Below are positions 22,555-55,110 of a DNA stretch of 64,000 nucleotides, one piece after another (within the stretch, counting starts at the first letter, position 1; each line of letters starts with the position of its first letter). The notes beneath the pieces are model-generated. The model was not told where the DNA came from, searched no databases, and worked only from the letters and a program-made list of their open reading frames with translations. The stretch covers positions 3,785,001-3,849,000 of the forward strand of contig NZ_CP132910.1 in assembly GCF_030846775.1 (NCBI RefSeq). Reading direction: 5' to 3'. The translations under genes and the position numbers were made by a program. Source of the DNA: Geothrix sp. 21YS21S-2. GTDB taxonomy: Bacteria > Acidobacteriota > Holophagae > Holophagales > Holophagaceae.

Positions 22555-23032
22555 GGCCGGATCACTGCCTGGCCGGTGCTTCCTGATGTGCGCTCTTCAT
22601 GTGGCTCATTTCCGCCCTCACTCGTAACGCATCCGGGAAATACCTTGTAATAGCATCCAGGACGGAACCTTCCATCCTTCATGGCTTCATGGCCCCAGCG
22701 TTTGGATTTTTCTGCCGGAATTCAGGCAGAGCGTCCATTCCCAATTCGCCTGGATTCTTCAGTAGAAGAGAACAAACGCTGCGGCGCTGGGGTCTTGCCG
22801 GGGACTGCAAAGAGAGAATTGATGCCAAGCCCGTTGGCCAAGGTCCCTGGGAAGAATCGCGTAGAACGGTTCGGCGGAGAATTTACACCGTTCACGGAAA
22901 TCGAGCATTTTCCCCAATCGAAATCGCTAAAATTGCCTGAATCCATCAACGCTCTCGAGCATGCCTTCGCGCCGGTTTGATCCTGGCCGTTTCCAACTCA
23001 CACCCACAAACCCCCTTGATCAGGGATGGCTT
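22555..23032. other. Non-coding leader upstream of the RHS gene, 478 nt
   Basis: Base composition falls below that of the flanking genes and codon structure disappears. Short frames here have no ribosome sites or family resemblance. It probably holds the RHS promoter and old island-junction DNA. I see no tRNA, integrase or att-like repeat in it. Confidence 0.5.
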
Positions 23033-26000
23033 ATGTTCAACTTTGCCATCAATTGTCCTGGGCTTGCTCCTTCAATCCGGCAGGCGTTCATAGCCTTCCT
23101 TCTCGTCTGCGCCCTACCCTTAAGCGCACAGTCCTACCAGAGCAGTTTTTCGGATGTCAAGTTTGACCGGGCCAAAGGACCTGTGACCGTAAGTGCCGGC
23201 GTCAACGTGGACGTCGCATCCGGTGCCGCGAGCATGGAGATCCCGTTCGGCCCAGGCATCGGCCAGCGCGGGCTGAATTTCCGTCCAACCCTGAGCCTGC
23301 GGGTCGCACCCCAGGTGGGCGTCAGTTCCACCTTCGAAACGTATGTGGCCCAAGTCAGCAGCGCGGGAACCTTGTATTACAACACCAACACGGTGGACAC
23401 GATGTACCAGCGGGGCCACGGAACCTCGACGTTCTTTCCGGGCACCTTCGATCTTGCCCTTGGAAGCACGGACGAGAGTCAGAGCGCATACAGTCTCCCT
23501 GGCGGGGGTGGATCCGTCATCGGCACGGTGCCGCCGGGAATGACCACCACCGCTGCCCAACAGCTCCTCACGCAGTTTGGCGTTCCTGGAAGCCTGGGGC
23601 TGCTTTCTGGCGACGTGGGCTCTCCGACCGGACCGTTCATCCAGATGGGGTCCTCGGGCGCTCTCATCCTTGGGATCCAGGATGCTGCCGGGGACGTGCA
23701 GGACTGGCTCTATCATGAAAGCATCGACACGCTTGCCATCCAGCACCGCTGGCCCCGGCGGATCCTGGTGGTGCAGGGGGAAGTGGCATACGAAATGGCC
23801 TACGTGAGCCATCGCTTCCGGAGTCAGATCCGCCCGTACCTCGTGAACACATCCAGGACTTCCCTCTTCAGCGCCCACTATGCCCTCACCCACATTCGCA
23901 ACCGGTTCGGGGAGCGCATCGATTTCGCCTATGCCTCCGACGGGATCGGGTACACGGCCACCTGGAGCACAAATCCCTCCGTAGGCATCCAGGTCGCCGT
24001 CGTGGGATCCGCCGCGGCACCCTCCATGCCGAGCCTGGTGTCCAGCGGCTATTCCATGGGGTCCCTCACCCAGGTGCGGGTCTCCTACCTGGGCATCAGT
24101 CACCCCGTCTCCAGCTTCCTCCTGGACCTGGGTTGCCCCAAGGGCCTGGAGGCGCTGACGCTGGAATCTGGGGGACAACCGGGAAGCGCCATAACCCAAC
24201 AACTTCATGGTCAGCGGAAGATGAATGTGTTGTGGGGTGAAGCCGCCCTCTGCCTCCAGCCCGTGAAGATCCTCCAGGAGGACACAACCGAAACGGTCCA
24301 GTTCACCTATGCCTCGGCCGGCGCCACGGCGACCTGGGACGGCGTCAGCCTCTCCCCGACGGTCCTGCGCAACATCACCCTGCCAAACCGCATCATCACC
24401 CTGAACTGGAAGGCCTACACCTACCAGGCAAACAGCGCGCCCAATGCCTGGGGCATCGCCCCTTCCAGCCAGCGCCGCCCGTCCTGGACGTTCGGCGTGT
24501 ATGCGCTGACCGATACCGACCTGGTTTCCGGCACCGAGCGAAGCACGAGTTATACACGGGTCGTCCCGCAACTCAACTGGCTAACGGAGGTCCCTCCCAT
24601 CGGGACCGACCTGACAGAAGCCTGGGTCTCCACGGCCTTCTACACCGCCGTCGCGACCCCGGATGGCCAGGTCGTCCTGCACCGCTTCGCGGAGCCCGAC
24701 CCCACCAATGGGATGCGCTTCCTCGCCTATTTGAAACATGTGGAACGCGAGGCACGGTACTACGCGGCCGGCGTGGCCTGGGAGGCGGATCTGGCCATTA
24801 CCGACCCGAGCTACAGCTCCGCCTACAAATGGGTCGTGAAGGACCGCTTCAGCGCCCACGCCTCCGGCAACGCCAGCGGCGCGCTGACGGACTACCCCGT
24901 GCCCTATCCCACGCGAACCCGAACCTGGGACAAGGATTCCCAGACCTTCACCGCGGAGGAGACGACGAACTGGGATGCGGCGAACCTGGGGTGGACGGTG
25001 ACCCACCGGACCACGGCCCTTAATGCCAGCCCCTCCCTGGCCTTCGATCCCCTGAATCTCGCCAGCCAAGGTTCAGGCTGGAGCTCCCCGGGAGCCTCCT
25101 CAGGCACCGAGGACCTGGTGACCCGGACCCTGGACTCGAGAATCCCCCAATGGCTACTGAACCGGGTGGCTACGGAAACCACGTCCCGGGGGACCGACGG
25201 GACGCTGAACGGCTCGACCGGAAACCCTCCACCCAAGATCACCCGGGACCAGGACGGCGTCCTGAACACCCTCCGGTCCGTGACCATCGGGGACCCCGCC
25301 GTCCTCGCCGTGACCACCACCCTGGACTACCAAGGCACCTCCGGCCTTACCGCCGCAGAACTCCAGAAGGCGACCCTCACGAGCCCGAACGGTCTTGCCT
25401 TCAGCGGCAGCATGGGTGTTGCCAGCTACGGCTACGACATCAATGGCTTCCTTTCGAGCATCGGGATCCGTCCCAACGCCGGCCTGATTCTCACGTCCCG
25501 CCAGGACCAGGACGAGATCGGCCGGCCAACGGCCCAGTATGACGCTGACAACCGAGCCACCGGGCTTTCCTGGGACGGGGCGGGACGCCTTACGCACATC
25601 GCACCTCCCGGAACCCAGGCCACGGACATCGCCTATGACGACAGCTCCCACCGCGGCATCACCGTGACCCGCGGCGCCCAGGTCCAGGTACTGCGCTACA
25701 ACGGCTTCGGGGAACTCGTCGTGGAACGGCGGAGGGACCCCAATGGCACCTGGTCCCATAAGATCCACGGCTACGACGGTGCCGGCCGCCCCACCGGGGA
25801 GACCGTATGGCTCCTGGGGGACGGGGCCGATCACGAGACCCAGTGGACGCTCCCGAACCTGACCCGGCTGGTGAGCGTAACGGTGACGATCCCCGGGGAG
25901 TCCGTATGTAAGAAGTGGGGGGCCATCAATCCCGACACGGGCGAAAGGGCCTGCGTCCAGTGGCAGACCTCCCCCCCGACCACCACCACCACTGAGTACG

Positions 26001-28468
26001 CTGCCCTTTACAAAGGTTCCTCGCTGACATATGACGCCCGGGGCCGGGCCGATACCGCCGTCGATCCCGCTGGGGTCACCAGTGTGACGACCTACCCGGC
26101 GTCGGCGGGTTTCAAGAAGGTGGTGACTGTTGCCGGCAACCGGGTCACCCAGTTCCTCCACGATGCCGCCGGCCGCTTGAAGGCCGTCACGGATGCCCTG
26201 GGCCAGGTCGCCAACTACAGCTACGACGCATCCAACCGCCTCACCGGTGTGACCCAGGCCAGCGGTTCCCATACCCAGAGCCGGACCTGGACTTATAATT
26301 CCCTGGGCTGGCTCGCGGCCCTTGACCAGCCTGAAAGCGGGACAACCACCTATTCCGGGTGGACCGTCGGGGGCAAGCCCCAGACCACGAACTACAACGG
26401 CAGGACCGTGACCGCGGTTCCCGATTGGATGGGCCGGGTGCTTGCCGTCACCTCCAGCGACGGAACCGTGAACCAGAGCTTCACCTATGACACGGCTGCG
26501 GGCGGCCTGGGCAAGCCAGCCTGGAGCCAGGACGGTCAGGTCCAGACCTCGTATGGGTACGAAGGTGCCACAGGCCGGCTCAATTCGCTGACCACGGTGG
26601 CCGCGGGGCAGACCATCACCCAGAGCTTCGGGTATGACGCCTACGGCAATCGCTCATCGGGTTCCACGGGACACGCGGGGTGGACCCAGAGCTATTTCGA
26701 CGCCACAGGCCATCCGCGGCTCCTTTCAGCCGGGGGACAGACCATTGCGGATACCAGTGACTGGTCCTCCAGCTTCGATTCCGTGAGTTGGCTGCCCAAG
26801 GCCGTGTCCTTCGGGAACGGGGCATCCAGCAATTTCTCCTACGGCCCGGACCAGATGCGGCTCGGCACCCTGGAGCATTTCGGTGCGGGCAAAGTGGCCC
26901 TCGAGCGCTGGGGCTATTCCTATGACGGCGCCGGGAATCTGTCCCAGGTGTTGGATCTCCGGACCCTGGGCACGGACCTCTTCGGCTATGACGTCCTCAA
27001 CCGCCTCATCTCCGCCGCCGTCCAGAGTCCGTCCTATGGCGAGCAGGACCAGCTCTTCACCTACGATGCCTTCGGGAACCGGATCAGTGGGACGACCACC
27101 AGTCCGGGTACGGTTTGCCCGAACACCGCCTATGTGAACTTCGATCCCAACGATGCGGCGTTGTGGGCCCACAACCGGCTGCCCGTCCAGATGGCCAACG
27201 GGGCGTATACGGGGGCCCTGTATGACGCCCAGGGCAACCTCACCCAAGTCTTCGAGAAGCCTGGCGATTCCAGCAAGGTCATCACCCTGACCTACGATGC
27301 GCTGGGCCGCGTCATGAGCGTGGCCCACTCCTCCAAGGGGATCCAGGAGCTCTACCAATACCGGGCCGACGGCCTTCGGACCGTCATCCAGGATTACCTC
27401 TGGGGGACCTACCAGAAATCCCAGATCCAGATCTACAATGATGCTCGTCAGCTGGTGAGCCAGTGGGAGGTCAGCACCAGCGGTTCTTTGACATGGAAGC
27501 GGGATGTCCTCTATGTGGGCACCCAGGGTGCGGCGGAACTGGATTCCGCGGGCCTCCACGTCACCCAGGTGGACCACCTGGGAAGTCCACGGGTAGTGAC
27601 AGGCCCGACGGGGGCGCTCGAATCGCGGCAGAAATTCCTGCCGTTCGGCGAGCTGCTCGAGCAGGCCGGGGCCTTCAAGACGGCCAAGGGCTATACCGGA
27701 CACGAGCAGACGGATGCGTCGGGGTTGATCTACATGCAGGCGCGGTTCTATCTGCCGCAATACGGGCGCTTTGCCAGCCCGGACCCGGCGAGGGACCAGC
27801 ATTTTGAGTTCACGCAGAGTTGGGACATCAACAGCTATGTTCGGAACAACCCTGTGATGGCGACGGATCCGACAGGCCTTCAAGAGGTCCCCAAAGATAC
27901 GAGCCAAGTCGAAGAAAAAGCCCCGGTGAAACCGGCAAAGAGAGAAGATTCCGGTTTCGGCGATATGTCCATGAGAAATAAGGAGAATAGGGTTGCGGCG
28001 CAAACAAAACCAGATCCATCGCGTCCGCCTCAAAAACTTACTAAGGCGGAAGTTGCTGAAAATTACAAAAAACTAGGGTTCGACCCTAATGGGAAGGGCG
28101 AAGGATTGACAGCCGCGCTGAACCCCGCGAAGGCTGCCGCAGCAGCAATAGCTGCACGAATTGCACTTGAAGATTCTAAGAAGCTGTTTCCTTCGCAACT
28201 AGGTCTTGGGGATGAGAGAGATGCAGCTAGACACGCCCTGTGGAGTTTCCACTTGACTAAGATGATCGGTGCAGATGGTGCAAAATTAATTACAGACGCT
28301 CATGAAAGGGATGACTCGCCTGCTGGAGAACGTCTGCAAGATTTATATAACAATAAGGTTGGTCGCGAAATGGCTCTTGATAGGAGCATCAACGTGAAAC
28401 CTGAAGTAGCTGTAATGAATGCCATTAGTGGAGGAAGACTCATGACAAGCATTCCAGAGGTGCAATGA
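23033..28468 (+). CDS. Secreted RHS/YD-repeat polymorphic toxin with DUF6973-like tip
   Basis: This 1811-residue protein has a signal peptide (~1-30, cleavage after LPLSAQ), an N-terminal beta-rich region, many YD repeats (for example YSYDASNRLTGV, YDALGRVMSV, YNSLGWLAAL) and the RHS core (DHLGSPRVV, YTGHEQTDASGLIYMQARFY, FASPDP, NPVMATDPTGL ending at residue 1616). The last 195 residues differ in base composition (AT-rich) and codon use. They hold a conserved DAARHALWSFHL...DAHE...DLYNNKVGREMA pattern that resembles DUF6973. RHS shells encapsulate such tips and release them as toxins in competition. Sec export rather than a VgrG/PAAR head is indicated. The ATG at 23033 has AGGGA upstream; a small immunity-like gene overlaps its end. 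Confidence 0.88.
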   Translation: MFNFAINCPGLAPSIRQAFIAFLLVCALPLSAQSYQSSFSDVKFDRAKGPVTVSAGVNVDVASGAASMEIPFGPGIGQRGLNFRPTLSLRVAPQVGVSSTFETYVAQVSSAGTLYYNTNTVDTMYQRGHGTSTFFPGTFDLALGSTDESQSAYSLPGGGGSVIGTVPPGMTTTAAQQLLTQFGVPGSLGLLSGDVGSPTGPFIQMGSSGALILGIQDAAGDVQDWLYHESIDTLAIQHRWPRRILVVQGEVAYEMAYVSHRFRSQIRPYLVNTSRTSLFSAHYALTHIRNRFGERIDFAYASDGIGYTATWSTNPSVGIQVAVVGSAAAPSMPSLVSSGYSMGSLTQVRVSYLGISHPVSSFLLDLGCPKGLEALTLESGGQPGSAITQQLHGQRKMNVLWGEAALCLQPVKILQEDTTETVQFTYASAGATATWDGVSLSPTVLRNITLPNRIITLNWKAYTYQANSAPNAWGIAPSSQRRPSWTFGVYALTDTDLVSGTERSTSYTRVVPQLNWLTEVPPIGTDLTEAWVSTAFYTAVATPDGQVVLHRFAEPDPTNGMRFLAYLKHVEREARYYAAGVAWEADLAITDPSYSSAYKWVVKDRFSAHASGNASGALTDYPVPYPTRTRTWDKDSQTFTAEETTNWDAANLGWTVTHRTTALNASPSLAFDPLNLASQGSGWSSPGASSGTEDLVTRTLDSRIPQWLLNRVATETTSRGTDGTLNGSTGNPPPKITRDQDGVLNTLRSVTIGDPAVLAVTTTLDYQGTSGLTAAELQKATLTSPNGLAFSGSMGVASYGYDINGFLSSIGIRPNAGLILTSRQDQDEIGRPTAQYDADNRATGLSWDGAGRLTHIAPPGTQATDIAYDDSSHRGITVTRGAQVQVLRYNGFGELVVERRRDPNGTWSHKIHGYDGAGRPTGETVWLLGDGADHETQWTLPNLTRLVSVTVTIPGESVCKKWGAINPDTGERACVQWQTSPPTTTTTEYAALYKGSSLTYDARGRADTAVDPAGVTSVTTYPASAGFKKVVTVAGNRVTQFLHDAAGRLKAVTDALGQVANYSYDASNRLTGVTQASGSHTQSRTWTYNSLGWLAALDQPESGTTTYSGWTVGGKPQTTNYNGRTVTAVPDWMGRVLAVTSSDGTVNQSFTYDTAAGGLGKPAWSQDGQVQTSYGYEGATGRLNSLTTVAAGQTITQSFGYDAYGNRSSGSTGHAGWTQSYFDATGHPRLLSAGGQTIADTSDWSSSFDSVSWLPKAVSFGNGASSNFSYGPDQMRLGTLEHFGAGKVALERWGYSYDGAGNLSQVLDLRTLGTDLFGYDVLNRLISAAVQSPSYGEQDQLFTYDAFGNRISGTTTSPGTVCPNTAYVNFDPNDAALWAHNRLPVQMANGAYTGALYDAQGNLTQVFEKPGDSSKVITLTYDALGRVMSVAHSSKGIQELYQYRADGLRTVIQDYLWGTYQKSQIQIYNDARQLVSQWEVSTSGSLTWKRDVLYVGTQGAAELDSAGLHVTQVDHLGSPRVVTGPTGALESRQKFLPFGELLEQAGAFKTAKGYTGHEQTDASGLIYMQARFYLPQYGRFASPDPARDQHFEFTQSWDINSYVRNNPVMATDPTGLQEVPKDTSQVEEKAPVKPAKREDSGFGDMSMRNKENRVAAQTKPDPSRPPQKLTKAEVAENYKKLGFDPNGKGEGLTAALNPAKAAAAAIAARIALEDSKKLFPSQLGLGDERDAARHALWSFHLTKMIGADGAKLITDAHERDDSPAGERLQDLYNNKVGREMALDRSINVKPEVAVMNAISGGRLMTSIPEVQ

Positions 28469-33214: not shown

Positions 33215-33622
33215 ATGGTTCCCGACACCGATCCCGGCTTCCACGGCGACGATCCTGTTCTTTCCAGCCTCGACATGGAGGTCATGGACCAGCTGCTGGG
33301 CCTGGACGACGGCGAGCTGGGGCTCCTGGAGGAGATGCTGGGCCTCTACAAGGAGGACACCCCCGGGCGCATCGAGGCCATCGGCGTCGCGCTGGCCGCC
33401 GGGGACATGGCGGACATGGCGGACGTGGCCCACGCGGTGAAGGGCTCCGCGGGCACCATGGGCGCCCCCAAGGTGCGGGCCGTGGCCGCCCTCCTGGAGA
33501 GCGGCGGGCGCATGGGCAGGTGGGACACGCCCGCGGCCGGCCTGCTGGAGCAGCTGAAGGCGGCCTACGCGGATTCCGTGACGGCGCTGGAGACGTTCGT
33601 GGCCCGGCGCAAGGCGGGCTGA
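33215..33622 (+). CDS. Histidine phosphotransfer (Hpt) domain protein
   Basis: This is a 135-residue single-domain Hpt protein. The phosphoacceptor motif is VAHAVKGSAGTMGA with His73, followed by the expected helices. Such proteins shuttle phosphoryl groups between a hybrid kinase and a response regulator. The ATG at 33215 is preceded by AGGAGG. It lies 14 nt before the DinB-UPF0158 fusion gene, so both may be co-transcribed. No kinase is adjacent; possible partners are hybrid or receiver proteins elsewhere, for example the receiver at 51058-53415 (speculative). Confidence 0.85.
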   Translation: MVPDTDPGFHGDDPVLSSLDMEVMDQLLGLDDGELGLLEEMLGLYKEDTPGRIEAIGVALAAGDMADMADVAHAVKGSAGTMGAPKVRAVAALLESGGRMGRWDTPAAGLLEQLKAAYADSVTALETFVARRKAG

Positions 33623-46517: not shown

Positions 46518-46834
46518 AGGACGTTCATGAAGCGTTGAATCTCAGGGAGGCCAACATGGTGGCCACCTACCTGGAGGACCAGGGCATCCTCGCCGATGTG
46601 CGCGGGGGCGCCTACCAGGCCGTGGTGGGCGAGCTCAGCAACATCCGCGGCACGCTGCCCAGGGTCTGGGTCCTGGAGGACGGCGACGCGGAACGTGCGG
46701 CCCGGCTGGTGGCCACCTTCGTGGCCTCCCTGCGCGCCACGCCCGAAGGCGAACCGTGGGTCTGCGCCTGCGGGGAGACGCTCGAACCCCAGTTCCAGTC
46801 CTGCTGGAAATGCCAGGCACCCAAGCCGGTCTAG
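46514..46834 (+). CDS. DUF2007-type small protein with C-terminal zinc ribbon
   Basis: This 106-residue protein has an N-terminal DUF2007-like alpha/beta domain (YLEDQGILADVRGGAYQAV...RVWVLEDGDAERAARLV). A C-terminal CxC-x12-CxxC knuckle (VCACGETLEPQFQSCWKC) probably binds zinc. The function is unknown. It is translationally coupled to smpB (ATGA). Its stop overlaps the rseP stop in a CTAG palindrome, so the two genes converge without a spacer. Confidence 0.75.
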   Translation: MKDVHEALNLREANMVATYLEDQGILADVRGGAYQAVVGELSNIRGTLPRVWVLEDGDAERAARLVATFVASLRATPEGEPWVCACGETLEPQFQSCWKCQAPKPV

Positions 46835-47955
46835 TGTCTGAGCTTCCAGATGTCCTGGAAGATGATCAGGGCGAACAGGCACACGAAGAACAGGAACCCG
46901 CCCGTGAGGATCCGTTCCTTCACCAGGTTCGACAGGTCCTTCCCGCGGATCTTCTCGAAGATCAGCAGCGCCGCGTGGCCGCCGTCCAGGAAGGGGATGG
47001 GCAGGGCGTTGAGCACGGCGAGGTTCATGGAGATCAGGGCGATGAGGCCCATGAACTGCATGAGGCCGGCCTTCGCCGCCCTGCTGCCGGCCCGGACGAT
47101 GGTGATGGGGCCGCCCACCTCCTTGAAGCTGACCTTGTGGGTGACGAGCTTGCCGAAGTTCCCCAGGATCTCCCAGCCGAGGCGGGCGCTGCCCACCACC
47201 GCGAAATAGGCGCCGGAACCCAGGTCCCTGGCCTGCAGGGGGCGCTTGTCATAGACCCAGCTGGAGGGCTCGAAGGCCACGCCGATCTTGCCGGCTCCGC
47301 CGACGTCCTTGGGGGTCACGGTGAGGGTGCGGTTGATGCCCTCCCGCTCCACGGCCACCTCGATGGGCTGGCCGACCCGGGCCCGGATGTACGTGATGGC
47401 CTCCTCGTTGCTGCTGCCCGGGAATTTCAGCTCCCCGAAGCGGGTGATCTGGTCGCCGGCCTTCAGGCCGCCCTGGGCGCCGGGCATGTCCGAGCTCACG
47501 TCCACCACCAGGAGGGGGGAGGGAAGCGGGCGCGCGGCCGTGGTGCGGGCGTTGTTGACGCCCAGGAAGAAGAAGACCACCACCGTGATGAGGATGTTGG
47601 CCAGGATGCCGCCGGAGTAGAAGGCCAGGCGCTTCCAGGCGGGCTGGGCCAGGAAGCCGTGGGGGTCCTCGGCGTCGGGTTCCTCGGGGTTGTAGCCGGC
47701 CAGGCGAACGTAGCCGCCTAGCGGAAGGAGGGACAAACGGACGTCCGTCTCGTTCCAGGCGAACCCGGCCACCCGGGGGCCGAAGCCCAGGGAGAAGACC
47801 TCCACGGGCAAGCCCATCCACTTGGCGACCAGGAAGTGGCCCAGTTCGTGGAAGAAGATGAGGCCCACCAGGAGCACCACCGGTCCCCAGAAGCCGGCGC
47901 CGGGAATGAAGGAGACCAGGAGGAGGGCCGGTGCCGTATAGAGCAATCGCTTCAT
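46831..47955 (-). CDS. rseP: Site-2 membrane metalloprotease RseP
   Basis: This 374-residue integral membrane protease cleaves anti-sigma factors and signal-peptide remnants within the bilayer. The zinc motif is FFHELGHF (HExxH at 36-40). One PDZ domain lies about residues 130-215 (DMPGAQGGLKAGDQITRFG). The third zinc ligand is in LNALPIPFLDGGH near residue 325. E. coli RseP has two PDZ domains; only one is seen here, as in many non-enteric homologues. It overlaps dxr (ATGA at 47952-47955) and ends the uppS-cdsA-dxr-rseP operon. Confidence 0.93.
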   Translation of the reverse strand: MKRLLYTAPALLLVSFIPGAGFWGPVVLLVGLIFFHELGHFLVAKWMGLPVEVFSLGFGPRVAGFAWNETDVRLSLLPLGGYVRLAGYNPEEPDAEDPHGFLAQPAWKRLAFYSGGILANILITVVVFFFLGVNNARTTAARPLPSPLLVVDVSSDMPGAQGGLKAGDQITRFGELKFPGSSNEEAITYIRARVGQPIEVAVEREGINRTLTVTPKDVGGAGKIGVAFEPSSWVYDKRPLQARDLGSGAYFAVVGSARLGWEILGNFGKLVTHKVSFKEVGGPITIVRAGSRAAKAGLMQFMGLIALISMNLAVLNALPIPFLDGGHAALLIFEKIRGKDLSNLVKERILTGGFLFFVCLFALIIFQDIWKLRH

Positions 47956-49121
47956 GGGTTTCCTTGGCGGGTGTGGTGAGAAATCCAGGTTCTGGCTTGG
48001 ACCCGGGCCTGCCGGTCAATATCCATCACCTGATCCAAAGTATGGGCCGGTTCGGCCGGGATGGCGGCCAGGATGGCCCCGCAGCAGGCCTGGATCCGCC
48101 AGAAGCCGATCCGGCCGTCCAGGAAGGCGGCCACCGCTTCCTCATTGGCGGCATTGAGGATAGCGGGGGCGGTGCCGTCGGCCGCGAGGGCCTGGTAGGC
48201 CAGGGCGAGGCAGGGGAATCTGGTGAGGTCGGGGGGCTCGAAGGTCCAGGCGCGGGCGGCGTCCCAGTCGTAGGGCGGCACCGGACCGGGCAGGCGATCG
48301 GGATGCAGCAGGGCGTACTGGATGGGCAGCTTCATGTCGTTGGCGCACACCTGAAGCTGGTAGGTGCCGTCATGGAACCCCACCATGGCGTGCACCTGGC
48401 TCTGGGGGTGGATGGTCACCGCGATCTGGTCCGCAGACAGGCCGAAGAGGTAGGCGGCTTCGATCACCTCCAGGCCCTTGTTCATCAGGGTGGCGGAATC
48501 GATGGTGATCTTGGGCCCCATCTTCCAGGTGGGATGGTTGAGGGCCTGCTCGATGGTGGCGTCGTGCACCCGCTGCAGGTCCCAGTCCCGGAAGGGGCCG
48601 CCGCTGGCGGTGATGCGCACCTCCCGCACGGCCCCGGGGGCGTGGCCGGCCAGGAGCTGGTGCAGGGCCGCATGTTCGGAATCCACGGGCAGCAGCTCGC
48701 CGCCGCCGGCTTCCAGCGCCTGGCGCATGAGGGCGCCGCCCACCACCAGGCTCTCCTTGTTGGCCACGCACACGCGCAGGCCGGCCCGCAGGGCGGCCTC
48801 GGCGCTGGCCAGGCCCGCGGCCCCCACCACGGCGGCCAGCAGGGTGTCGGCCCCGGATTCCAGGGCGCAGGCCTGGAGGCCGTCCATGCCGTGGAGGATG
48901 TCGGGCCGGTAGGAGAGCTGGCCGGCCAGCCACTGGGCGTCCTCAGGCCGGGAGAGGGAGACCAGCCGGGGCCGGAACCGCTCGCACTGGGCCAGGAGGA
49001 GGTCCCGGTTGCGGCCCGCGGCCAGGGCGGCGACCTCCAGGCGGTCCGGATGGGCCGCCACCACGTCCAGGGTGGAGGTTCCGATGGAGCCGGTGGATCC
49101 CAGGAGGGCGACCTTGCGCAT
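47952..49121 (-). CDS. dxr: 1-deoxy-D-xylulose 5-phosphate reductoisomerase
   Basis: This 389-residue enzyme makes 2-C-methyl-D-erythritol 4-phosphate, the committed step of the MEP isoprenoid pathway. Seen: the NADPH loop GSTGSIGTSTLDV (8-20), ANKESLVVGG (~119), the metal/substrate residues PVDSEHAALHQ (~144), ITASGGPFRD (~169), HPTWKMGPKITIDSATLMNKGLEVIEA region and HPQSQVHAMV. Start is 3 nt after the cdsA stop. It follows uppS and cdsA, joining isoprenoid supply with its use. Confidence 0.95.
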   Translation of the reverse strand: MRKVALLGSTGSIGTSTLDVVAAHPDRLEVAALAAGRNRDLLLAQCERFRPRLVSLSRPEDAQWLAGQLSYRPDILHGMDGLQACALESGADTLLAAVVGAAGLASAEAALRAGLRVCVANKESLVVGGALMRQALEAGGGELLPVDSEHAALHQLLAGHAPGAVREVRITASGGPFRDWDLQRVHDATIEQALNHPTWKMGPKITIDSATLMNKGLEVIEAAYLFGLSADQIAVTIHPQSQVHAMVGFHDGTYQLQVCANDMKLPIQYALLHPDRLPGPVPPYDWDAARAWTFEPPDLTRFPCLALAYQALAADGTAPAILNAANEEAVAAFLDGRIGFWRIQACCGAILAAIPAEPAHTLDQVMDIDRQARVQARTWISHHTRQGNP

Positions 49122-49124
49122 GGG

Positions 49125-50030
49125 TCAGTTCAGTCCGTGGACGAAGTGGATGTAGGCGTAGAACACCGGCGCGGCGAAGGCCAGGCTGTCCAGCCGGTCC
49201 AGCATGCCGCCGTGGCCGGGGATGGAGATCCCGCCCATGTTGGAGTCCTTGGCGCCCGCGCTGCGCTTCCACATGCTCTCGACCAGGTCGCCCATGAGGC
49301 CGGCCACGCCTAGGAGGAGGCCGATGGCCAGCGCGTCCAGGGGCGTCCACTCGGTGTAGACGAAGGCCCGGATGAGGAAGGCCGCCAGGACGTTGCCCGC
49401 GAGGTTGCCGCCCACCCCTTCCCAGGTCTTCTTGGGGCTCACCCGGGGCGCCAGCTTGTGCCGGCCCAGGAGGCTGCCCACGAAGTAGGCGCAGGTGTCG
49501 CCGATCCAGGTGATGAGGAACAGGGCCAGAACGAGGCGCCCGCCGGTGTTGGACAGGGTCGTCTCGCTGAACATGAAGAGCTTCATCATGAACCCGGTGC
49601 CCAGGCCCAGGTAGACGGCTCCCATCCAGGTGATGGCCTGGCTGGGGAGGGCCTTTTCCAGGTCCCGGTCGAAAAGGAGGGCGCCGAAATGGATGACCAG
49701 GGCGGAACCCGTCAACACCAGCCACAGGGGCAGGGGGTCCGTGGGGTCCCGGCCCAGGAGGTAGAAGTGCAGGAGGAAGGCCCAGCCCGCCAGGGTGCCG
49801 GCGAGGAAGGAGGGGTTGAAGCCCATCTTCCGGCCCATGAGGGTGAACTCGTGCATGGCCATGAGCAGGGCCCCGGCCAGGAGGCCCAGGAACACGGCCT
49901 TGGCCCAGTACTGGGCACCCAGGTAGAGCAGGGTGAAGAAGAAGATCGCGAACACCAGGGCGGTGCCCACCCGGACGGCAAGGTTGCCCTTGTCGATGCC
50001 GGCGCGCTTGGGGGGTGGGGCAGGGGTCAT
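49125..50030 (-). CDS. cdsA: Phosphatidate cytidylyltransferase
   Basis: This 301-residue integral membrane enzyme makes CDP-diacylglycerol from CTP and phosphatidic acid. It has about eight membrane helices. The CdsA signature near the C-terminus reads SMWKRSAGAKDSNM followed by PGHGGMLDRLDS, with the key Lys-Asp and HGGxxDRxD. An extra N-terminal stretch (MTPAPPPKRAGIDKGN) is soluble. It sits between uppS and dxr, the usual order in many bacteria. Confidence 0.93.
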   Translation of the reverse strand: MTPAPPPKRAGIDKGNLAVRVGTALVFAIFFFTLLYLGAQYWAKAVFLGLLAGALLMAMHEFTLMGRKMGFNPSFLAGTLAGWAFLLHFYLLGRDPTDPLPLWLVLTGSALVIHFGALLFDRDLEKALPSQAITWMGAVYLGLGTGFMMKLFMFSETTLSNTGGRLVLALFLITWIGDTCAYFVGSLLGRHKLAPRVSPKKTWEGVGGNLAGNVLAAFLIRAFVYTEWTPLDALAIGLLLGVAGLMGDLVESMWKRSAGAKDSNMGGISIPGHGGMLDRLDSLAFAAPVFYAYIHFVHGLN

Positions 50031-50041
50031 GGGGACTCCGC

Positions 50042-50728
50042 TCAGATTCCGCCGAAGCGGCGCTCGCGCTGGGAATAGGCTTCGAGGGCTTCCCGGAGCT
50101 GGGGGCCCCTGAAATCGGGCCAGAGGCACTCGGTCATGTAGAACTCGGCGTAGGCGGCCTGCCAGAGCAGGAAGTTGGAGATGCGCAGCTCCCCGGAGGT
50201 GCGGATGAGCAGGTCCACGTCCGGCGCGCCGGCGGTCCACAGGCGGCTGGCCAGGGCCGCCTCGTCCATCTCCGCGGGCGGGACCCCGTCCTCGATGCAC
50301 TTCCGGGCCGCGGTGGCCAGCTCCAGCCGGGAGCCGTAGTTCACGGCCAGGTGGAAGACCATCCCGGTGTGGCCGGCGGTCTGGAGCTCCAGGGTGCGCA
50401 GGTCCTTGAGGATCCCCTCGGGAAGCCCTTCCGGGGCCCCCAGGTGGTGGAACCGGATGCCCCGCTTCTTCAACTTGGGCAGGAACATCCTGAGATACAT
50501 CCGCAGGAGGGCCATGAGGACGGCCACCTCCTGGGCGGGGCGCTTCCAGTTCTCGGTGGAGAAGGCGTACAGGGTGAGGTGCCCGATGCCGGCGTCGGAG
50601 GCGGCGTCCAGGATGTCCTGGACCGCGCGCACGCCCTCCTTGTGGCCCTTGATGCGGGGCCAGCCCCGCTGGGCAGCCCAGCGGCCGTTGCCGTCCATTA
50701 TGAGAGCGACGTGGCGGGGGATGCTCAC
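50042..50728 (-). CDS. uppS: Undecaprenyl diphosphate synthase (isoprenyl transferase)
   Basis: This 228-residue cis-prenyltransferase makes the C55 lipid carrier for peptidoglycan and LPS. The family motif MDGNGRWAAQRGWPRIKGH (11-29) contains the catalytic Asp, and AFSTENWKRP (~69-78), HLAVNYGSR (~140) and the C-terminal DLLIRTSGELRISNFLLWQ (~181-199) are diagnostic. It heads the uppS-cdsA-dxr-rseP operon. Its start region is partly duplicated 107 nt upstream. Confidence 0.95.
   Translation of the reverse strand: MSIPRHVALIMDGNGRWAAQRGWPRIKGHKEGVRAVQDILDAASDAGIGHLTLYAFSTENWKRPAQEVAVLMALLRMYLRMFLPKLKKRGIRFHHLGAPEGLPEGILKDLRTLELQTAGHTGMVFHLAVNYGSRLELATAARKCIEDGVPPAEMDEAALASRLWTAGAPDVDLLIRTSGELRISNFLLWQAAYAEFYMTECLWPDFRGPQLREALEAYSQRERRFGGI
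50703..50728. repeat. Direct repeat, copy 1 (uppS 5' end)
   Basis: 26-nt sequence covering the first codons of uppS, repeated identically at 50810-50835. Confidence 0.8.
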
Positions 50729-51057: not shown

Positions 51058-53415
51058 ATGGTTCAATTCAACACGCGCGCGAACGAGATCCTGCTGAAGC
51101 TGGTCTACTACGGGCCGGGGCTTTCAGGCAAGACGACCAACCTCCAGGCGCTCCACGCCATGTGCTCCGAATCCAACCGGGGCGAGATGTTCTCCGTGAA
51201 CACCCAGGAGGACCGGACGCTGTTCTTCGACCTGCTGCCCATCAACCTGGGCTACATCTACGGGAACGCCATCCACCTCCAGATCTACACGGTGCCGGGG
51301 CAGGTGCAGTACGACGCCAGCCGCCGGGTGGTGCTCGGCGGGTCGGACGGCGTGGTCTTCGTGGCCGATTCCAGCGAAGCCAAGATGCAGGAGAACGTCG
51401 ATTCGCTCTCCAACCTCTACCACAACCTCAACGCGAACCGGCTCAACATCAAGCAGATCCCCTTCGTCCTCCAGTACAACAAGCGGGACCTGGACGACGC
51501 CATGCCCGTGGGGGTCATGAACCGCCGGCTCAACTTCCGGTCGGTGCCCTACTTCGAGTCCGTGGCCAACCGCGGGGACGGGGTGCTGGACACCTTCCTC
51601 TCCATCGCCCGGGAGACCGTGGGCACGACCTTCAAGAAATACCACCTGGACAAGAAGATCAAGGACTTCGAGGAGATGCTCAATCTCATCGATTCCAACA
51701 TCAAGTCCAGCATGCACGAGCTGCCCAGGGCTTCCGAGCCGGTGGCGCCCCCGCAGGAATCCACCGTGCTCCGGCACAGCGGCGTCTCCATCACGGACCT
51801 GGCCCCCGGCAAGGTGGCCGATGCCCAGGACCTCCTGGAGGACGCCCTCACCTCCAACATGGAGACCGCCCGGCTCTACTCCGAATTGCGCACCGTGAAG
51901 GACGCCCTGGAGAAGAAGAACGAGGAGCTGCGCCAGATCTACGGGCAGCTCGAGCGCGCCAACCAGGACAACCTCAAGACCCGCCGCTACCTGGAGGGCC
52001 TGATCCAGAGCGTGGGCGAGGCCATCGTCTCCTTCAGCGCCGACGGCAGGATCCTCACGTGGAATTCCGCCGCCGAGCAGATCTTCGGGTACGCCCGGGC
52101 GGAGATCGTCGGACGCACCATGCAGCAGCTGGCCCCGGCCTCCCGCGCCGGCGAGCTGGAACAGGCCATCGCCCAGGTCGGGAAGGGCCAGCTCATCCGC
52201 GACGTGGCCACGGTGCGCCTGCGCAAGGACGGCACGGAGTTCCCCGCCCGGGTCACCTATGCCCCGATCCGCGGCAGCGACGACCGGGTGCTGGCCTACT
52301 CCGCCCTGATCCGGGACGAAGGGGAGCGCCAGGCCCTGGAGGCCCGGCTCAACGACGCGCAGGGCATGGCCGCCCTGGCCCGCATCCTGCCACCCATGCT
52401 CAACGAGGTCGCCAACCGGCTCAGCCCGATGGTGCTCCAGCGGGACCTGCTCCTGGAGGAGTCCGATGCCGCCATGGCGCCGCGCCTGTCCAAGGTCCTG
52501 TCCGGAGTGGACCACGCGCAGCTGCTCCTGAAGCCGCTGTTCATGCTCTTCTCCCCCTCCTCGCCCCGGATGGACGACGCCAGCCTCAACGAGGTGGTGC
52601 AGGACTGCGCCCGGCGCGTGGAGGGAGAAGCCGCCGCGGCCGGCGTCTCGATGGAGCTGTCCCTCGACCCCGCCCTCCAGCGCACCTCGCTTGACGCCGG
52701 GATGGTGCGGGAAGCCGTCCTCTGCCTTCTCCGCACGGGGATCCGGGCCTCGGCCCGGTCCGCCGCCCGGCGCCTCCGGGTGGGCACCCGGCAGACGGCC
52801 ACGGGCCAGCAGCTGGTGGCGCAGGACACCGGACCGGCCCTTTCCGAAGCCGATTCGCGCAGGATCTTCGATCTGGCCCAGGCCACCGATGTGGACTCCC
52901 TGGGCATGTGCGTCGTCGCCTCGGTGGCGAAGGCCCACGGCGGAAAGGTCACCGTCCGCAGCCAGGAAGGACTCGGGAACGCATATCTGGTGGAGTTGTC
53001 CATGGTCCAAGCCCCGTCCCCGTCAGCCCCCGCGAACCTGGAGGGTGCCCGCATCCTCGTGGTGGACGACGAGCAGTTCCTCCTGGAATGCCTCGTGGAC
53101 GCCATCGAGTCCTGGGGCTGCCAGGTCACTCCCTGCTCCCTGGCGGCCGAAGCCATCCAGAAGCTCCAGGGCGGCACCTACGACCTCATCGTCTCCGACA
53201 TCCGCATGCCGGGCCTCAGCGGGATCCAGCTCTTCGAGTGGATCCAGGAGCACCAGGCCGGCATGGCCAGCCGGATCCTGTTCACCACCGGCGACTCCTT
53301 CGACCCCGAGACCCGGAGCTTCCTGGAGCAGGCCAAGCTCCCCCACCTGGGCAAGCCCTTCGACCTGAAGAAGCTCAGGCAGGCCATCTCGGACCTGAAG
53401 GCCTCGAACGGCTAG
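51058..53415 (+). CDS. Fusion protein: MglA-type GTPase, coiled coil, PAS, degenerate histidine kinase, receiver
   Basis: This protein has 785 residues. Residues 1-~195 are an MglA/Arf-like small GTPase: P-loop YYGPGLSGKTTNL (19-26), TVPGQVQYDASRR in place of the usual DxxG switch 2, and NKRD (141-144). A coiled coil spans ~255-310. A PAS domain lies at ~312-425 (IVSFSADGRILTWNSAAEQIF). The kinase-like region (~435-660) lacks a phospho-His in the H-box helix and lacks the N-box Asn; only a DTGP and a late G-box remain. A receiver domain (~666-785) keeps DDE and the phospho-Asp (D714 in VSDIRMPG) and Lys (GKPFD). MglA sets cell polarity in gliding bacteria. The fusion suggests that GTP state and phosphorylation are read in one chain. 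Confidence 0.8.
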   Translation: MVQFNTRANEILLKLVYYGPGLSGKTTNLQALHAMCSESNRGEMFSVNTQEDRTLFFDLLPINLGYIYGNAIHLQIYTVPGQVQYDASRRVVLGGSDGVVFVADSSEAKMQENVDSLSNLYHNLNANRLNIKQIPFVLQYNKRDLDDAMPVGVMNRRLNFRSVPYFESVANRGDGVLDTFLSIARETVGTTFKKYHLDKKIKDFEEMLNLIDSNIKSSMHELPRASEPVAPPQESTVLRHSGVSITDLAPGKVADAQDLLEDALTSNMETARLYSELRTVKDALEKKNEELRQIYGQLERANQDNLKTRRYLEGLIQSVGEAIVSFSADGRILTWNSAAEQIFGYARAEIVGRTMQQLAPASRAGELEQAIAQVGKGQLIRDVATVRLRKDGTEFPARVTYAPIRGSDDRVLAYSALIRDEGERQALEARLNDAQGMAALARILPPMLNEVANRLSPMVLQRDLLLEESDAAMAPRLSKVLSGVDHAQLLLKPLFMLFSPSSPRMDDASLNEVVQDCARRVEGEAAAAGVSMELSLDPALQRTSLDAGMVREAVLCLLRTGIRASARSAARRLRVGTRQTATGQQLVAQDTGPALSEADSRRIFDLAQATDVDSLGMCVVASVAKAHGGKVTVRSQEGLGNAYLVELSMVQAPSPSAPANLEGARILVVDDEQFLLECLVDAIESWGCQVTPCSLAAEAIQKLQGGTYDLIVSDIRMPGLSGIQLFEWIQEHQAGMASRILFTTGDSFDPETRSFLEQAKLPHLGKPFDLKKLRQAISDLKASNG

Positions 53416-54552: not shown

Positions 54553-55110
54553 TTACGGGTTGGTGCCGGTGTTCGCCGACCCCGCGGTCTTGGGCGCGTC
54601 GGGCTTCTTGGCGGCATCGTTGGCGGCCCCCAGGACGCCGGCGGCCGTGGGGGCCCCCGGCACCCCGAGCAGGTTCCCGGCCGCGGAGAAGGCCCAGTCG
54701 CTCGTGAGGGTCTTGCCGTTGTAGATCCGGTAGCTGTTCTCCTGGACCTTCGTCTTCACCCCCACGATGGGCAGCCCCGTGGTGTCCCCGGAGGCCCCGG
54801 CCTGGACGGCGGTGATGAGGTCCCAGTCCCCTTCCCGGCTCATGGGGTCCTTGTAGACCCTGCGCACCACCGGGGGCCGCATCTTGCCCAGGTCCTCGAG
54901 GCTGAGGGGGTAGCCGCCGGTCTTGGCCCGGTAGGCGCGGATGCCCGCGGCCATGGCCTCGCCCCGGAAGATGAGCTCGGCCTCCTGGTCCCGCTGGACC
55001 TCGGCCTTGAGGGAGGGCAGGGCGGCGGTGAGGAGGATCCCCATGGCCACGATGATCGCCAGCAGCATGGCCAGGATGAAGCCCCGTTCCCTCGTGGTGT
55101 CGCGTGCCAT
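54553..55110 (-). CDS. Type II secretion/type IV pilin-like (pseudopilin) protein
   Basis: This 185-residue protein has an N-terminal prepilin signal: a basic leader, then RGFILAMLLAIIVAMGILLTAA. Gly|Phe is the prepilin peptidase site, followed by the hydrophobic helix. The Glu normally at position 5 of the mature protein is absent (Met there), as in some minor pseudopilins. The rest has a GspG-like RAYRAKTGGYPLSLEDLGKM helix/loop and a disordered Ala-rich tail. Its partners (prepilin peptidase, GspE and others) are not in the window. Confidence 0.8.
   Translation of the reverse strand: MARDTTRERGFILAMLLAIIVAMGILLTAALPSLKAEVQRDQEAELIFRGEAMAAGIRAYRAKTGGYPLSLEDLGKMRPPVVRRVYKDPMSREGDWDLITAVQAGASGDTTGLPIVGVKTKVQENSYRIYNGKTLTSDWAFSAAGNLLGVPGAPTAAGVLGAANDAAKKPDAPKTAGSANTGTNP

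Follow-up and report, generated by a model that had tools for sequence, protein, structure and literature searches.

An MglA-type GTPase fused to a PAS domain, a histidine-less kinase fold and a receiver in Geothrix sp. 21YS21S-2, with orthologs across its class: a candidate regulator of type IV filaments

MglA, a Ras-like GTPase that steers bacterial movement, is ordinarily a stand-alone protein. A single open reading frame of Geothrix sp. 21YS21S-2 appears to join it to two-component domains, and it raises the questions of whether the fusion is genuine, whether its kinase is active, and in which direction a signal would pass along the chain. We analysed the frame within a 64,000-nucleotide stretch of the genome (hereafter, the window), for which a first-pass annotation had proposed a GTPase, coiled coil, PAS, kinase-like region and receiver, in that order. 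Pfam, phmmer and AlphaFold/Foldseek analyses recovered the same order.

Domain anatomy of the fusion protein

The gene and its features, all on the forward strand, are as follows.

51058..53415, +: whole gene, 785 aa, ATG start; MglA GTPase, coiled coil, PAS, His-less DHp/CA and receiver
51058..51642, +: Group 1-type MglA GTPase domain, aa 1-195 (phmmer, G1-G5 motifs, Group 1 criteria of PMC4316618)
51112..51141, +: P-loop GPGLSGKTTN, aa 19-28 (motif reading)
51214..51216, +: Arg53, next to the G2 Thr, at the position of the intrinsic arginine finger (motif reading, ortholog alignment)
51289..51303, +: G3 motif TVPGQ, aa 78-82, with Gln82 (motif reading, ortholog alignment)
51478..51489, +: G4 motif NKRD, aa 141-144 (motif reading, ortholog alignment)
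51823..52017, +: long signalling helix or coiled coil, aa 256-320 (AlphaFold model)
51829..51888, +: junction motif [DE]LLxxAhxxNMExAxLYxxL, aa 258-277, common to PAS- and GAF-type MglA fusions
51991..52317, +: PAS domain, aa 312-420 (Pfam PF00989, E 1.3e-15)
52318..52551, +: DHp-like two-helix region, aa 421-498 (AlphaFold helices 421-460 and 474-498; Foldseek)
52402..52404, +: Asn449, at the phospho-His column (ortholog alignment)
52414..52416, +: Asn453, at the H+4 position of the HisKA phosphatase residue, in every receiver-bearing ortholog (ortholog alignment)
52573..53001, +: CA/HATPase-like domain, aa 506-648, with Thr560 for the N-box Asn and degraded G boxes
53047..53409, +: receiver domain, aa 664-784 (PF00072 at aa 666-777, E 9.6e-20), key residues intact

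The N-terminal start (MVQFNT..LLKLVYYGPG) is common to nearly all orthologs. The GTPase domain aligns over aa 5-194 with Myxococcus xanthus MglA (6h17; phmmer E 9.3e-54), and both the P-loop and the NKxD motif read by the first-pass annotation are present; along with Arg53 and TVPGQ, they are near-invariant across orthologs. Group 1 MglA proteins are recognized by an Arg next to the G2 Thr and by TVPGQ in G3 (PMC4316618), and by its sequence the fused GTPase is of this group. The 2014 survey of prokaryotic Ras-like proteins that defined the MglA groups took MglA as a single-domain protein of 150-240 aa and excluded proteins of >240 aa, a definition that the 785-aa fusion falls outside. With the three other MglA proteins of the same genome, the fused domain shares 48-49% identity. 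The genome encodes one MglB, adjoining a free mglA, and no MglB/roadblock gene adjoins the fusion gene at its locus. A separate set of MglA proteins (L003, L004, L058-L064, L079, L080) carries long acidic or proline-rich tails with a conserved, beta-rich-looking C-terminal segment (for example ..VPVVLDRSLF..VEIRLKLYLK); two copies are found in the genome studied here (C1:3552927 and C1:99954).

A Pfam search of the whole chain, a check that the annotation had proposed, identified the PAS and receiver domains, with no HisKA match anywhere in the 785 aa and a HATPase_c score just below the cut-off (26.3 versus 26.4 bits). The AlphaFold model, built from a 14-row alignment (pTM 0.36), is poor in the GTPase part (pLDDT <50) and good elsewhere, where it shows the long helix, PAS, receiver and a kinase region with a DHp plus CA fold. 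Foldseek matches of the model include ZraS, HK853, LOV/FixL-type kinases and the His-less DivL (4q20). The receiver was described earlier as intact, and D670/D671, D714, T743/T744 and K766 are indeed all present.

Retention of kinase and receiver residues

The sequence of the window protein suggests that its kinase fold is catalytically inactive, as first proposed: Asn449 occupies the phospho-His column, Thr560 the N-box Asn column, and the G1 (DTGPA) and G2 (SLGM) boxes are both degraded. This description does not extend to the orthologous group as a whole. Among 70 surveyed orthologs, 55 with a receiver, the phospho-His is retained in 39/39 genomes of a Geothrix-like genus (g4, a label that rests on Geothrix rubra, L046, sharing the same motifs) and in one g10 genome, and the N-box Asn in 33 of the 39; the other six, whose N-box is altered, still have the His. 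A kinase dead throughout the group is thus ruled out. All 15 genomes of six other genera, including all six of the window's genus, have Asn at the phospho-His column. One f3 row that scored as His is an alignment artefact, as the DHp is gone there, and was excluded. The basal forks of the tree lack resolution and are compatible with one loss followed by reversion or with several losses.

Residues on the receiver side follow a different pattern. Asp714 is retained in 55/55 receiver-bearing orthologs, as is Asn453, including the 15/15 in which the phospho-His is replaced by Asn. The HisKA phosphatase motif has Thr or Asn at H+4 (PMC3510030), and by sequence Asn453 would be this residue. In the receiver-less genus g11, His, Glu and Asn453 are all lost (5/5 genomes), although the joint loss of receiver and ExxN motif there counts as a single event. 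Because all 55 receiver-bearing orthologs keep Asn453 and g11 lost it with the receiver, the surface that faces the receiver seems to have been preserved, without catalysis, in proteins that have a receiver. Alternatively, the ExxN motif may be retained for structure or docking, given that most orthologs also retain the Glu, a residue that matters to the kinase reaction and not to the phosphatase reaction. Pairwise dN/dS is <1 in every domain and comparison. In most pairs the GTPase has the smallest values (about 0.00-0.11), whereas those of DHp/CA range over 0.03-0.66, the top value of 0.66 falling in the DHp of one g1 pair.

Distribution, gene neighbourhood and related fusions

We found an ortholog in 77 of the 93 genomes of the class by hand count: 65/77 in the window's family (f1), 7/7 in family f3 and 5/9 in family f2. 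Orthologs within the window's family, for example those of Geothrix rubra and of Holophagaceae MAGs, are 63-96% identical. The gene whose frequency the first-pass annotation had left to a survey is thus conserved class-wide rather than a one-off, and the single-chain link itself stands. One further Holophagaceae-type ortholog, with uppS, lies on a contig labelled as a Deltaproteobacteria MAG (L042), a label that is probably wrong.

The architecture varies. Most f1 orthologs are full length (~785 aa); the receiver is absent from 5/5 g11 genomes (656-663 aa); f3 proteins (~630 aa) have no receiver, have largely lost the DHp and keep the HATPase; f2 proteins comprise GTPase, coil and PAS only (~407 aa); and single g2 and g10 genomes lack both kinase and receiver. 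No kinase remnant was found downstream of the short forms in three loci checked. In two f3 genomes the receiver-less fusion is followed at 0.7-1.2 kb, in the same orientation, by a free receiver-like gene of ~121 aa (L142:2209-2571, L143:2421-2783) that has Glu at the expected phospho-Asp. The low dN/dS of the GTPase and the truncated orthologs point to GTPase-coil-PAS as the core of the protein, with the GTPase as its likely output.

In nearly all Holophagaceae loci checked, the fusion gene lies beside the same divergent cluster:

46831..50728, -: uppS-cdsA-dxr-rseP-like cluster, upstream of the fusion, same gene order

We take these gene names from sequence recognition rather than from a family search. 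The receiver-less g11 gene adjoins the same cluster, and therefore its receiver was lost in place. In all five f2 genomes with the gene, the ortholog directly follows a pilin gene (gap roughly 15-30 bp) as the last gene of a run, which is pilB/gspE-pilC/gspF-pilin in 4/5 and contains an FHA-T2SSE gene in the fifth (L066). This latter gene (L066:1359-2813) joins an FHA domain to a T2SSE ATPase and directly precedes the pilin and GTPase-PAS genes. The f2 operon ATPase scores 618 bits with the PilB model and 599 bits with the GspE model, both below cut-off, and judging by sequence the operon could encode a type II secretion-type filament instead of a pilus. That the f2 ortholog closes a pilus-type operon in 5/5 genomes lends independent support to a role in motility or pili, the motility side of the polarity or motility switch suggested initially; polarity control stays a proposal.

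The genome studied here encodes four PilT-family ATPases above cut-off. Near the fusion, a pseudopilin-like ORF (RGFILAMLLAIIVAMGILLTAALP..; 54553-55110, reverse strand), also there in two close relatives (L039, L043), gave no Pfam match. Elsewhere in the window, an 1835-aa ORF (22961-28468, forward strand) has a start resembling that of a large secreted protein and is followed by small ORFs.

A second fusion type, MglA-coil-GAF-HisKA-HATPase (~700-750 aa), occurs in other families of Acidobacteriota, the phylum to which our fusion survey was confined. It has no receiver, and HisKA and HATPase_c score above the Pfam cut-off in four examples. Several of these proteins have intact H, N, G1 and G2 boxes and others have broken ones, suggesting that the kinase failed more than once among MglA fusions. 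No pilB or pilC was found near GAF-type fusion genes in 13 loci. In an unrooted tree, the fused GTPases split from free-standing MglA (support 100/99) and the PAS-type fusions form a clade (99/96). The junction motif, placed where the helix starts, recurs in both types; this favours a single fused ancestor without proving it.

Direction of signalling and comparison with known systems

We consider it about an even chance that the GTPase is the output, its state being set by PAS and by a His-less kinase fold that reads the receiver, and that it acts on type IV filaments. The PAS domain would sense an internal cue, and the receiver would obtain its phosphate in trans, from a different kinase or from a phosphorelay. 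Predicted to make no phosphate itself while retaining the DHp helices and the H+4 Asn, the kinase fold would dock its own receiver, read its phosphorylation state and perhaps remove the phosphate. The long helix and junction motif would then convey the states of PAS and receiver back to the GTPase, and this would change how it cycles between GTP and GDP or how it reaches GAP and effectors, the most likely effector being the type IV filament machinery. The signal direction, phosphorylation in trans, phosphatase or reader activity and pilus control are the parts of this scheme that we infer.

We favour this reading because the Group 1 GTPase residues are intact, because Asn453 and Asp714 are kept wherever a receiver is present and Asn453 is lost with it in g11, because the predicted DHp-CA fold has DivL among its matches, because the f2 gene ends a pilus-type operon, and because the genome has PilT-family ATPases and a free mglA-mglB pair. 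The GTPase is placed as the output since kinase and receiver are missing in f2 and in the single g2 and g10 genomes, and the receiver in f3 and g11; were the kinase the output, the truncated forms would have lost it. Against the reading stand the pilus operon link being in another family, whereas in the window's family the gene adjoins uppS-cdsA-dxr, the ambiguous type of the f2 operon, the single-event co-loss in g11, the mostly kept Glu, the missing adjacent MglB and the poorly modelled GTPase.

The opposite direction, in which the GTP/GDP state of the GTPase would be the input that controls the sensor-kinase module, with kinase or receiver passing the signal on, seems to us unlikely. An N-terminal position is usual for sensors in ordinary kinases, the receiver residues are invariant, and GAF-type fusions with intact boxes and no receiver could have a kinase output; however, the kinase of the window's genus is predicted to be incapable of autophosphorylation, and orthologs persist without kinase or receiver while the GTPase is the most constrained part.

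It is rather improbable that the protein is a working phosphorelay hybrid, in which the g4 His is autophosphorylated or phosphorylated by a partner protein and a free Hpt feeds the receiver of the window's genus. Retention of His in every g4 genome, even in those with a changed N-box, and the existence of Hpt genes in the genome fit such a relay; Asn at the phospho-His column in the whole of the window's genus does not. The Hpt gene that the annotation had offered as the donor (33215-33622) is real, but it lies 17 kb away and the genome has five Hpt domains in all. Finding no link to the fusion, we rejected it as an unsupported partner.

We think it somewhat less probable still that kinase and receiver are a decaying remnant and only GTPase-PAS matters. 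Several lineages have lost one or the other, and dN/dS rises in the DHp of the one g1 pair, yet purifying values in all comparisons, the universal retention of Asp714 and Asn453 and an intact open frame across dozens of genomes run counter to decay. There is next to no probability that chance, a frameshift or faulty assembly joined mglA to an adjacent hybrid kinase gene. The ortholog survey refutes this: dozens of independent genomes, some of them complete single contigs, have the same fusion with conserved synteny, and the identity and dN/dS of the orthologs rule out chance.

Compared with free MglA of M. xanthus and Thermus thermophilus, the fused GTPase is alike in G1-G5, the Arg beside the G2 Thr and TVPGQ, and possibly in a type IV pilus link. 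It differs in its added coiled coil, PAS, kinase fold and receiver, its separate lineage and the lack of an adjacent MglB. In M. xanthus, phosphorelay control of MglA runs through several separate proteins. RomR and the fusion both represent a Group 1 MglA influenced by a receiver, but RomR is a separate protein with the order REC-linker-RomR-C (PMC3441718), whereas the fusion has a different domain order and a single chain that carries receiver, GTPase, PAS and kinase fold together. In actinobacterial conservons (AGPS), a sensor histidine kinase is likewise coupled with a GTPase of the MglA family, there through separate operon genes for the CvnA kinase, CvnB roadblock, CvnC and the CvnD Group 2 GTPase (PMC4316618, PMC13343842). 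The fusion, a single Group 1 chain with no adjoining roadblock, is ruled out as a conservon member by its GTPase group (TVPGQ) and gene layout. After the GTPase, the domain order is that of hybrid histidine kinases (PAS-HisKA-HATPase-REC), from which the protein of the window's genus differs in lacking the phospho-His, N-box and G2 and in having the extra N-terminal GTPase.

Caulobacter DivL, which acts on CckA, is like our protein a histidine kinase fold without the phospho-His; to our knowledge, it has no GTPase and no fused receiver. One DivL study describes its catalytic domain as repurposed to sense response-regulator phosphorylation (PMC4211667). By analogy, the His-less DHp is best read as a DivL-like reader or phosphatase, as part of the GTPase-output reading. 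More tentatively, the protein may be a switch of reversed flow, in which the His-less fold senses whether the receiver of its own chain is phosphorylated and signals backward through PAS and the long helix to the GTP state of MglA, joining phosphorelay and Ras-like polarity control so as to steer type IV filaments.

Control of MglA by two-component parts is known; what appears new is that such parts lie in one chain with the GTPase. Full-text searches of open-licence papers found no MglA-kinase fusion, in keeping with the earlier proposal that the link of GTPase, sensor and receiver is new. Our results suggest that a whole MglA group was missed, since the main survey kept only short GTPases. 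In research on bacterial polarity, phosphorelay control of MglA is a central question, and with the natural variants (kinase kept, catalysis lost, receiver lost, GTPase-PAS only) the setting of a Ras-like GTPase by phosphorylation can be tested directly. For the Acidobacteriota, the fusion provides a candidate pilus or polarity regulator.
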